From positions 1-64,000 of the forward strand of contig JAJYHT010000053.1 in assembly GCA_021784595.1 (NCBI GenBank): 64,000 bases of DNA, read 5' to 3'. Each line of letters opens with the position of its first letter. Positions within the stretch are counted from its first letter, which is position 1. Shown piece after piece: positions 48,071-50,909 of the stretch. The stretch comes from Bacillota bacterium (GTDB lineage Bacteria; Bacillota; Sulfobacillia; Sulfobacillales; Sulfobacillaceae). A model generated the notes under the pieces. That model searched no databases, was not told the DNA's origin, and was given only the letters and a program-made list of their open reading frames with translations. Made by a program: the position numbers and the translations under genes.

Positions 48071-48107
48071 AAGCTGTTGGTATAACAATTTGTAGGAGGT
48101 TTTAGGG

Positions 48108-48344
48108 ATGGCTGTTGTGGTCTACACCACCCCCACCTGACCCCATTGCCGGACTGCTAAAAAGTTCTTGCAGGAGCGCAAAGTCCCTTTTAAAGAAGTG
48201 GATGTTTCCAAAGGGCCCCAAGCGGCGCAAGAACTGCAGCGAAAGTCTGGGCAAACCGGCGTGCCGGTGATCATAGTGAATGGAACGGTGATTGTGGGGT
48301 TTGACCGTCCTAAGTTAGTGCGGGCATTGGGTGTTCGTGAATAA
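48108..48344 (+). CDS. Selenocysteine-containing glutaredoxin-like protein (in-frame TGA)
   Basis: The 78-residue protein has a glutaredoxin/NrdH fold: strand VVVYTTPT, active site U11-P-H-C14, helix RTAKKFLQE, and the cis-proline block TGVPVIIVNG. Codon 11 is TGA (48138-48140), exactly where the first Cys of CPHC belongs. Downstream sequence is in frame, conserved and ends with TAA at 48342. ATG follows GTAGGAGGT at a normal distance. A SECIS-like hairpin starts 11 bases after the TGA. The convergent neighbour has the same TGA arrangement. It probably reduces disulfides or persulfides in the cytoplasm. Confidence 0.85.
48151..48167 (+). promoter_or_regulatory. Candidate SECIS hairpin 1
   Basis: GGACT / AGTTC form a 5-bp stem (one G-U) with a 7-base loop GCTAAAA; the loop begins 15 bases after the TGA. 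A G in the first two loop bases and a loop 16-37 bases downstream are the features of bacterial SECIS elements. The loop position is at the near edge. An overlapping alternative stem (CTGC / GCAG) also exists. Confidence 0.5.
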
Positions 48345-48380
48345 AAAGAAAGGACCCTTTTCAAGAAGGGTCCTTTCTTT
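48345..48380. terminator. Bidirectional terminator shared by the two selenoprotein genes
   Basis: A 14-15-bp perfect inverted repeat (AAAGAAAGGACCCTT / AAGGGTCCTTTCTTT) with a 6-base loop has T-rich tracts on both sides. It lies 1 base after one stop codon and 1 base before the other, so it ends both convergent genes. Confidence 0.9.
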
Positions 48381-48381
48381 A

Positions 48382-49032
48382 TTATTGTTTTTGGGCGTCC
48401 AACACCAGTTTTAGCAGTTGCGCCTCGGGGACCGCGCCAGTCACCTCGAGTTTGCCGTTAATCATAGACTTGGGAACCCCATAGACGCTATATTTGCTGG
48501 ATAGCTCGGGAAATTCCCCCGCATCAATCATATCAGCTACAATGTGCGGTGAAGCCAATGCCATATCATGAGCCAGGCGTACAGCCCGGGGACAATATGG
48601 TCAGGTGGGGGTTGTAAAGACCTGAATGTGAAGCGGCTTTGAAATCGTGGCTAACGCCTCACGCGCCTGATCGCTAAGACCGCTGGTATGTGTGGATACC
48701 GCTTTGAGCGCTTCAAGAAAAGCACCAAATTCATGCCCGCTGGGAATTCCTAAAAATCTCACTCCCGTTCGATTTCCGGTGTTGTCTAAGAGCTCGGCGA
48801 CAGGACCTGTAATAGTCTCATTGCCGCCATGCCCCGGTTCTAGCATCGGAGCCTTCTCGGTAGTTTTGACCATCACTAAATCGGAAAGGTCCGCCACTTC
48901 ATTAATCAATTCGTTAAAAGTCTCTGCCATTTCGGCTTCGGGTCCAGCGTAAAATTCGACGGTGACGGCATCCTGCATGCCGTCAAAGAACTGCGAGACT
49001 TGTTGGCTTACTTGACTGTCGAGCAATGCCAT
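48382..49032 (-). CDS. Selenocysteine-containing protein disulfide oxidoreductase (in-frame TGA)
   Basis: The gene encodes 216 residues with two thioredoxin-like units, like archaeal/bacterial PDO. The first unit has lost its CxxC (FYAGPEAEMAE). The second has VFTTPT-U144-P-Y-C147-PRAVRLAHDMALASPHI and the cis-proline YGVPKSM. Codon 144 is TGA (48601-48603) and the frame is open on both sides. The homologous motif is TPTCPYCPRAV, so the TGA replaces the first cysteine. A strong SECIS-like hairpin follows. ATG at 49032 is 10 bases after AAAGGAGG. Confidence 0.85.
48573..48589 (-). promoter_or_regulatory. Candidate SECIS hairpin 2
   Basis: On the minus strand CCGGGC / GCCTGG form a 6-bp stem (one G-U) with a 5-base loop TGTAC. 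The loop begins 18 bases after the TGA and has G as its second base, matching the bacterial SECIS pattern well. Confidence 0.6.
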
Positions 49033-49067: not shown

Positions 49068-49688
49068 TTAAGTGCGTTGCACGGGATGGCGTGCCCCGAT
49101 CCATAATGACATCCCGCCGACCACGTTGGCGACGTTAAACCCTTGTTGGGAAAGCCAAGCTGCGACCGATGCGCTTCGGCTGCCCGATGCACAGACAATG
49201 GCGTGGGGCTTAGCTTTGTCGAGTTCCGACATGCGCGCTTGCAATTGTCCCATGGGAATGCTGATAGCACCAGGAATAATGCCAGATCGCAATTCATAGG
49301 ATTCCCGAACATCCACAACAATATAATTGTCAAGGTTTTGCAAGAGCTCGTCAACGGTTAAGTCATGAACTCGTGCAACCGGTAGGCCAGCTTGTTCCCA
49401 TCCCTTGACGCCTTGATCAAAAACGAAGGGCACGGTAATACCTGCTTCTTCAAGGCTATCTTTGGCCGATTGCGCAATCACACTATTTTCCGCGAAAATT
49501 CCGATGGGAGGATTTTGCCCATTTAAGGCCCTCTTTACCTCCTGGCCCCACTGGCGGCGATGGAATGGGAAGTTGTAGCTCCCCGCCGGATGCGCCTTAG
49601 AGTAAGCATGAGGCGGATTGACATCGAGTAAGATAACCGAACCTTGCTGTACTTGATTCATAAAATCCTGCGCAGTCATAGATGCCAT
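49068..49688 (-). CDS. Tandem rhodanese-domain protein, one active site
   Basis: Two rhodanese domains (about 1-105 and 110-206) occur in one 206-residue protein. The second has the catalytic loop IVCASGSRS with its cysteine, and VDVRESYELRSG before it. The first has IGIFAENSVIAQ where the loop should be, with no cysteine, so it is structural or binding. The protein would carry persulfide sulfur in the cytoplasm. ATG at 49688 is 12 bases after GGAGG. It is 28 bases downstream of the persulfide dioxygenase gene and 35 bases upstream of the Sec-PDO gene on the same strand, so the three may be co-transcribed. Confidence 0.85.
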   Translation of the reverse strand: MASMTAQDFMNQVQQGSVILLDVNPPHAYSKAHPAGSYNFPFHRRQWGQEVKRALNGQNPPIGIFAENSVIAQSAKDSLEEAGITVPFVFDQGVKGWEQAGLPVARVHDLTVDELLQNLDNYIVVDVRESYELRSGIIPGAISIPMGQLQARMSELDKAKPHAIVCASGSRSASVAAWLSQQGFNVANVVGGMSLWIGARHPVQRT

Positions 49689-49716
49689 GGATTCATCAAT
49701 CCTCCTTCTCTTAGGA

Positions 49717-50478
49717 TTAGACAGGCGCGGCCACGCCCAAGTTTTCAGCGCGGATAGCGGCTGCACTCTCTGGGGGCGGTTTTAAGAGCATGAGTACCTG
49801 TTCCACAAATTCGTCAGGTTCCGTGAATTGCACAAATCGGTTCCATCGACGTTCATAGCCAATGGTGGATACCGGTTTGGAACTGAGAAAAAGCCCTCCG
49901 CAGGCAGACGCCCCGTAATGTGCCGGATATAACTCGCATGTATCAGGCAATGTTAAAATTTTGTCGCGAATCGAATGAAACTGATCCAAAGCGGCTGCTT
50001 TAACCATTTCGGGGGTTGGGTCCGCTAGGTCTGGTCGTCCAACATCTCCCACAAACAATGAGTCGCCACTCAGTATGAGCCATGGTTCAGAAGCCCTGGT
50101 GGCATCGGTTACGACAAGAGAAATACTATCAGGGGTATGACCAGGAGTTTCCCACACCACGGCTTTGACGTGTCCTAAGTCAATGGTGTCGTTCTGACGA
50201 AGCGGATTGAAATCATAGGCTACAGGAGCCCGATGGCTGAGCGAGACCGGCACGCCCGTTTTTTGAGATAACTCGCGGGCCGCTGAATGATGATCGGCAT
50301 GCACATGGGTTTCGACTATGGCCGTTATCTCCAGTCCTAACTCGGCCGCTCCTAAGATATACGAATCAGCTCCTAGATTGCCCAACGGATCTACCACCAT
50401 AGCCTGCCCTTGTGCCTCGTCGCCTAGCAGAAATGAAGCGCACCCCAGTGACCCGTCCCACATCGGCACAAAAATCAT
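49717..50478 (-). CDS. ETHE1-like persulfide dioxygenase (MBL fold)
   Basis: The protein has the MBL motif THVHADHHSA (His58, His60, Asp62, His63), WETPGHTPDS, and the ETHE1-specific LFVGDVGRPDL. Family members oxidise glutathione or other low-molecular-weight persulfides to sulfite with an iron centre. Length is 253. ATG at 50478 follows GGAGGGAGAGC. It is transcribed away from the CsoR-family gene, and a CsoR-type operator overlaps its promoter. Confidence 0.9.
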   Translation of the reverse strand: MIFVPMWDGSLGCASFLLGDEAQGQAMVVDPLGNLGADSYILGAAELGLEITAIVETHVHADHHSAARELSQKTGVPVSLSHRAPVAYDFNPLRQNDTIDLGHVKAVVWETPGHTPDSISLVVTDATRASEPWLILSGDSLFVGDVGRPDLADPTPEMVKAAALDQFHSIRDKILTLPDTCELYPAHYGASACGGLFLSSKPVSTIGYERRWNRFVQFTEPDEFVEQVLMLLKPPPESAAAIRAENLGVAAPV

Positions 50479-50494
50479 GCTCTCCCTCCTCGCT

Positions 50495-50516
50495 TATATA
50501 CCACCTAGGGTATATA
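50495..50516. promoter_or_regulatory. CsoR/CstR-type operator palindrome
   Basis: TATATACC (50495-50502) and GGTATATA (50509-50516) are perfect inverted repeats around ACCTAG. CsoR and CstR operators have a similar TACC-CCTAGG-GGTA layout. The site lies between divergent genes, one of them a CsoR-family regulator, and overlaps both promoters. Confidence 0.7.
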
Positions 50517-50542
50517 ATGACGGTAGCAGCAAAAAAAGTCAA
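50514..50542 (-). promoter_or_regulatory. Promoter of the persulfide dioxygenase gene
   Basis: On the minus strand TTGACT (-35, 50537-50542) and CATTAT (-10, 50514-50519) are 17 bases apart. The operator covers the -10 box and the start point. On the plus strand a TATAAT (50513-50518) may serve the regulator gene. Confidence 0.6.
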
Positions 50543-50603
50543 CGGTATTTGTTTTGGCGGATCTAGCAAACTACTCTTAAGGGTAACCAGGGAGGGGATT
50601 ATT

Positions 50604-50909
50604 ATTCCAGACAAAGAACAGCCTGTGCGACCTGTGGTTATCGGGCAATATTGGGATACGGGGGACTTGATTCGTCGGATGCGCCGTATTGAAGGACAAG
50701 CTCGGGGCATACAAGCGATGTTAGAACGCGAAGAAGACTGCAAGGCCATCTTAACGCAATTGGCGGCCATGGCTGGAGCGCTGAATCAAGTGTCGCGAGT
50801 GGTAGGAGCTTGTGGATTAGTGGATAGCCTGAGACGAGAGGCTTCTCTGTTGAATCCGGATGATATAAGGGCTGTGCTGGAGGACTTGCAATCGAGAGGA
50901 AGACTATAA
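50604..50909 (+). CDS. CsoR/CstR-family repressor, unusual second Cys, probable ATT start
   Basis: The family core MRRIEGQARGIQAML and EEDCKAILTQLAAMAGAL is clear. Copper sensors use C-H-C and persulfide sensors use two Cys 29 residues apart. Here Cys46 is followed by Cys70 only 24 residues later (VVGACGLVDSL), and the usual His and second Cys positions are Gly and Ser. The start is uncertain: an ATT at 50604 is 8 bases after GGAGG; a GTG at 50625 is the nearest standard start. An ATG at 50517 lies on the predicted -10 box. DUF302 follows. Confidence 0.8.
   Translation: MPDKEQPVRPVVIGQYWDTGDLIRRMRRIEGQARGIQAMLEREEDCKAILTQLAAMAGALNQVSRVVGACGLVDSLRREASLLNPDDIRAVLEDLQSRGRL

Follow-up and report, generated by a model that had tools for sequence, protein, structure and literature searches.

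A probable glutaredoxin-like selenoprotein convergent with a second selenoredoxin in a Sulfobacillaceae genome

RESULTS AND DISCUSSION

Two convergent genes with in-frame TGA codons

The window, by which we mean the whole 64-kb stretch of DNA analysed, carries two genes lying tail to tail, each with an in-frame TGA in its active-site motif (Table 1). The forward-strand gene translates to MAVVVYTTPT-U-PHCRTAKKFLQERK...LGVRE*, and its frame stays open, as the first-pass annotation had described, from the TGA at codon 11 within YTTPT-U-PHC to the TAA at 48342–48344. That annotation had also called the product a glutaredoxin, which holds for the fold, since the full 60 positions of PF00462 (Glutaredoxin) are matched, at 77.4 bits (gathering cut-off 22.9). 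It does not hold for the narrower sense of glutaredoxin 3 or NrdH, for which TIGR02181 and TIGR02194 stay below their cut-offs (62 vs 90 and 52.9 vs 85.75 bits); the models passed are TIGR02196 (GlrX_YruB; 90.5 bits vs 88.55) and NF041212 (Uxx_star glutaredoxin-like (seleno)protein; 72.9 bits vs 66).

The adjoining reverse-strand gene was absent from the first-pass annotation. It encodes a protein disulfide oxidoreductase (PDO) that passes TIGR02187 (PDO_seleno_TRX) with 203.6 bits against a cut-off of 185 and has its UxxC in the second domain. Its mechanical ORF starts at 49104, and the likely start is the ATG at 49032, which has GGAGG upstream.

Table 1. Features of the locus and of the genome around it. 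Plain positions are those of the window; positions with handles belong to other loci of the genome.
Feature	Position	Strand	Basis
Probable glutaredoxin-like selenoprotein gene, YruB/Uxx-star type, 78 residues	48108–48344	+	Translation; PF00462, TIGR02196, NF041212
TGA codon 11, predicted Sec, first position of the UxxC active site	48138–48140	+	Translation, homologue DNA
Ribosome binding site AGGAGG, upstream of the ATG	48094–48099	+	By eye
Synonymously conserved stretch after the TGA, probable SECIS	48147–48173	+	Codon comparison
Inverted repeat flanked by A/T runs in the gap between the two genes, likely bidirectional terminator	48346–48381	.	By eye only
Second selenoprotein gene, two-domain PDO	48382–49032	−	TIGR02187
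TGA (Sec) codon of the PDO in FTTPT-U-PYC	48601–48603	−	Window scan, homologue DNA
Bacterial SECIS hairpin CCGGGC[UGUAC]GCCUGG of the PDO, loop 17 nt past the TGA	48573–48589	−	
RluA-type pseudouridine synthase-like domain with C-terminal glutaredoxin domain and UGA	L100:17558–18430 (G000 C10)		
RluA-type pseudouridine synthase-like domain with C-terminal glutaredoxin domain and UGA	L101:1270–2127 (G000 C46)		
ArsC-family protein, CYRR-U-STC	L182:481–864 (G000 C99)		PF03960, 41.5 bits
PDO paralogue, FVAPT-U-PHC	L180:732–1412 (G000 C44)		
Second tRNA-Cys(GCA), tRNA-Sec-like body	L002:1501–1592 (G000 C1:18026–18117)		
selA with private in-frame TAA	L016 (G000 C33:64640–65902)		

A scan of the window kept 102 TGA sites after motif and open-frame filters, and among those listed only the two above looked, by eye, like real redox genes. 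Searches of the window gave nothing at gathering score with Rfam and no tRNA. Rhodanese-like, metallo-beta-lactamase-like and CsoR-like genes, named by eye, lie nearby at 49068–50909, and these surroundings suggest sulfur or persulfide handling. Several TGA-containing frames occur in the genome, as would be expected if UGA were a sense codon genome-wide, but of 56 long, non-overlapping ORFs in the window 18 end in TGA (one being the neighbouring PDO gene), and the anticodon UCA occurs on tRNA-Sec. We give such a reassignment practically no chance, and the first-pass annotation had called it unlikely from the genes that stop at TGA.

Conservation of the TGA codon and selection beyond it

Homologues of the glutaredoxin-like protein were searched for in 61 genomes (its own and 60 relatives), and matches at E ≤ 1e-5 were found in 51 of them. 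In 42 genomes the best match reached E ≤ 1e-20; it spans one TGA in 30 of these and no stop in the other 12. The best 13 matches (82–99% identity, own included) all carry one TGA, which is therefore no chance event, and readthrough is also seen in many matches at 62–74% identity. A sequencing error turning TGC or TGT into TGA is excluded in practice, because an in-frame TGA recurs in 30 of the 42 close homologues. Read at the level of DNA, the active-site position is TGA in 25 of the 30 TGA genomes; the alignment to Cys homologues that the first-pass annotation had proposed as a check places TGC or TGT there in 10 of the 12 stop-free genomes. These 25 TGA and 10 Cys glutaredoxins are the ones that passed the motif filter among the 42 loci and were used in the codon and SECIS comparisons below (failing: L168, L169, L172, L174 and L175 from TGA genomes, and L178 and L179 from G050 and G046); an earlier hairpin set comprised 17 TGA and 9 Cys glutaredoxins passing the filter out of 30 loci. 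In a collection of named genomes, the pattern-readable matches outside the class all have Cys (L064–L075, L081, L083), and the nearest named TGA relatives include Sulfobacillus benefaciens AMDSBA4 (95%) and S. thermotolerans Kr1 (88%, L054).

The region beyond the TGA is under purifying selection as protein, because codon differences there are mostly synonymous. Against the relative at L019, post-TGA differences at codon positions 1, 2 and 3 number 2, 1 and 26, and the ratios of synonymous to nonsynonymous codons against four relatives are 25:2 (L019), 29:2, 31:7 and 31:6 (the last against L022). The most distant of 11 sequences compared still has 31 synonymous vs 20 nonsynonymous codons.

Matches to selA, selB and selD are all missing from 4 of the 12 stop-free genomes (G007, G016, G046, G050) and from none of the 30 TGA genomes (hypergeometric 0.0044, relatedness uncorrected). 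The neighbouring PDO likewise has Cys in G007 and G016. Two TGA genomes give no selB match (G023, G052) and two no selA match (G021, G036); all four have selD, and the misses are likely draft-assembly gaps. PDO matches at 1e-15 occur in 47 of the 61 genomes, and of 78 matches 24 were examined as loci (22 TGA, 2 Cys). Extra TAA or TAG codons in some PDO matches probably stem from a false N-terminal extension of the query.

Selenocysteine machinery and the selA nonsense codon

In bacteria, SerRS charges tRNA-Sec(UCA), SelA makes Sec-tRNA from it with selenophosphate supplied by SelD, and SelB delivers the product at UGA, aided by an mRNA element just downstream. The genome encodes a tRNA-Sec with anticodon UCA (72.9 bits), selB (346.9 bits vs cut-off 242.25), selA (541.1 bits vs 267.9, with one in-frame TAA) and selD (351.9 bits, with its own in-frame TGA in KSG-U-GCK). 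The Sec reading put forward in the first-pass annotation, which was to fall if selA, selB, selC and selD were absent, is therefore supported both by the presence of all four loci and by the conserved TGA. Across the 61 genomes, selB is matched in 47 (1e-80), selD in 49 (1e-40) and selA in 47 (1e-60). A weaker selB-like match on C42 (192 bits, below cut-off) is, at a guess, EF-Tu. One relative, G010, has selA and selB matches, no selD at threshold and a PDO match with one TGA; the missing selD is either an assembly gap or a sign of another selenophosphate source.

The TAA in selA is found in 1 of the 47 selA-bearing genomes, the assembly studied here. Six members of the genus or family read at this site have CAA or CAG, and six more distant genomes have Gln, Ser or Thr in four cases and lack the search motif in two. 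Either the assembly is wrong at this codon or the strain has recently lost the function of the gene. If it were real the strain could not make Sec, and the glutaredoxin-like gene could be a decaying remnant in which UGA is now a stop and only the relatives make a selenoprotein. Besides the private TAA, such decay would accord with an AAA that replaces the usual AAG in the conserved stretch after the TGA. Nevertheless, the selA match to the model, its TAA apart, runs from position 27 to 453; identity of the glutaredoxin to its closest relatives is 95%, with few nonsynonymous changes; and other TGA genes, like their hairpins, look intact. An error in the draft assembly is the simpler cause of the TAA, and we hold decay to be improbable.

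SECIS elements

The published bSECIS model has a loop of 3–9 nt with G in the first two places and a spacing of 16–37 nt (PMC13188914). The hairpin that follows the TGA of the PDO is a textbook bacterial SECIS. It recurs as CCRGGC[NGUNN]GCCUGG in 21 of 22 TGA loci, where its codons are held (CCC 21/22, CGG 19/19, CGC 20/20, CTG 21/22). The model fits 21 of the 22 PDO homologues, against a synonymous control that is itself high (46/88), and the TGA group folds with an energy barely lower than that of synonymous controls (mean z −1.14). In three loci the stem reads CCAGGC in place of CCGGGC; this change from G-U to A-U is one-sided, and there is therefore no two-sided covariation.

Within the candidate stretch of the glutaredoxin-like gene, the TGA homologues hold TGC (25/25), CGG (23/24) and AAG (23/25), as against 6/10, 3/6 and 6/10 for the same codons in Cys homologues; in the window as a whole, TGC is used 81 times vs 69 for TGT, CGG accounts for 240 of 1125 Arg codons, and AAG is used 191 times vs 327 for AAA. 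The gene studied here has AAA as its last conserved codon, and AAA stands there in 2 of the 25 TGA sequences. The preference for TGC, CGG and AAG points to a constraint at the RNA level, with shared ancestry uncorrected in these counts. The bSECIS model fits 15 of the 25 TGA glutaredoxins, vs 1 of 10 Cys homologues and 17 of 100 synonymous randomisations, whose codon usage was taken, roughly, from stop-to-stop frames of at least 200 codons in the window. A G[G/U] loop is present in only 6 of the 25, and the structures vary among species; the gene studied here fits the model through a TGCA loop, lacking G[G/U].

A structure common to the TGA glutaredoxins was found neither by ungapped hairpin enumeration nor by the published model with bulges, and the RNAalifold consensus of 17 of them contained almost nothing. 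Folding energies relative to synonymous controls did not separate TGA from Cys glutaredoxins (mean z −1.17 vs −1.51). Averaged pairing probabilities over the 25 TGA sequences gave no common structure either, only two weak helices with pair probabilities of at most 0.27, one joining positions 8–19 to 23–35 and the other joining the UGA, with the bases that immediately precede it, to 43–46. A SECIS signal in the glutaredoxin mRNA is nonetheless likely. It is also conceivable, if rather unlikely, that decoding of this UGA needs no canonical bSECIS and goes through an element unlike the NGUNN-loop hairpin of the PDO and of other UGA genes in the genome. One SelB would then have to recognise two types of signal; alternatively, the UGA would lie enclosed in the base of a longer stem.

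Other UGA genes and a second tRNA-Cys

Further UGA genes of the genome are selD, a Grx-like gene (C10), the PDO paralogue (C44), an ArsC-like gene (C99) and two fusions of an RluA-like domain to Grx (C10, C46); these are the ones we met, as distinct from a survey of the whole selenoproteome. All four of those compared (selD, the C10 Grx and both fusions) fit the bSECIS model and have a G[G/U] loop, vs 12 of 40 in the synonymous control. The fusions share the active site YTxPT-U-SVC, each with a strong GUU-loop hairpin, and score 22.9 (C10, below the cut-off of 26.8) and 35.4 bits (C46, above it) with PF00849. We found no description of such fusions: a literature search came back empty, and the words "pseudouridine" and "RluA" are absent from PMC13188914. 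By hand count, and going by frame length alone, 21 of 27 glutaredoxin matches with open frames of 250–340 residues carry a TGA.

Besides a tRNA-Cys on C33, the genome has a second one (L002) with a long D stem and variable arm, 51.7 bits to tRNA-Sec and a 3' end of U then CCA. It resembles the selC* tRNA-Cys of anaerobes described in PMC7609411, and similar DNA occurs in 17 of the 61 genomes. Its presence raises the question of whether the UGA might be read as Cys by a suppressor tRNA-Cys, leaving an ordinary CxxC site, the more so as tRNA-Cys(UCA) readers are reported from other bacteria in the same source. The extra tRNA, however, has the anticodon GCA, which ARAGORN found at 8 of the 10 loci of this type scanned, own included (of the remaining two, one yielded no tRNA and the other an ambiguous anticodon). 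Moreover, the only UCA tRNA seen among the 30 of 47 tRNA matches examined as loci is tRNA-Sec, and a SECIS hairpin follows the TGA of the PDO. Decoding as Cys is very improbable.

A paired selenoredoxin locus

We conclude that the gene very probably encodes a small glutaredoxin-fold selenoprotein whose UGA at codon 11 is read as Sec by the ordinary bacterial route. On this reading, the codon would be decoded through SerRS, SelA, SelD, SelB and tRNA-Sec(UCA), and Sec-11 would act as the attacking residue of the UxxC in thiol-disulfide (or persulfide) exchange, the protein being paired with the convergent second selenoredoxin. The locus provides a well-supported selenoredoxin pair for Sulfobacillus and its relatives, acidophiles of bioleaching, and the class as a whole offers natural Sec-to-Cys switches within one gene pair. 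Annotation that stops at TGA would miss the glutaredoxin and truncate the PDO after residue 167 of its mechanical ORF.

Comparison with known selenoproteins

A selenoprotein glutaredoxin of Alkaliphilus/Clostridium oremlandii OhILAs was reportedly described by Kim in 2011. Like selenoprotein Grx of this kind (PF00462, UxxC), the protein studied here has a glutaredoxin fold by Pfam, with the predicted Sec at the N-terminal Cys of CxxC. Unlike the C. oremlandii type, its best NCBIfam models are YruB and Uxx-star and not glutaredoxin 3, and the solved chains 4tr0 and 4tr1 (Glutaredoxin 3), presumably from C. oremlandii, match with only 37.5 and 33 bits. Within the NF041212 and TIGR02196 group, whose cut-offs are passed, it falls below those of the narrower UXX-star families 1, 2 and 3. 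The neighbouring PDO shows no notable difference from TIGR02187, a family that PMC13188914 lists under the name "Homolog of AhpF N-terminal domain".

Within the available text of the literature on Sulfobacillus with selenocysteine or selenoprotein, we found a Sec formate dehydrogenase (PMC4378227) and a Sec peroxiredoxin (PMC7409299), and no others for this genus. Sec glutaredoxins were tabulated as early as 2006 (PMC1794560), and a list of selenoproteins from 2026 contains both a Sec glutaredoxin and an AhpF-N/PDO selenoprotein (PMC13188914). Both kinds of selenoprotein are known already, and the Sulfobacillus pair adds members to each.
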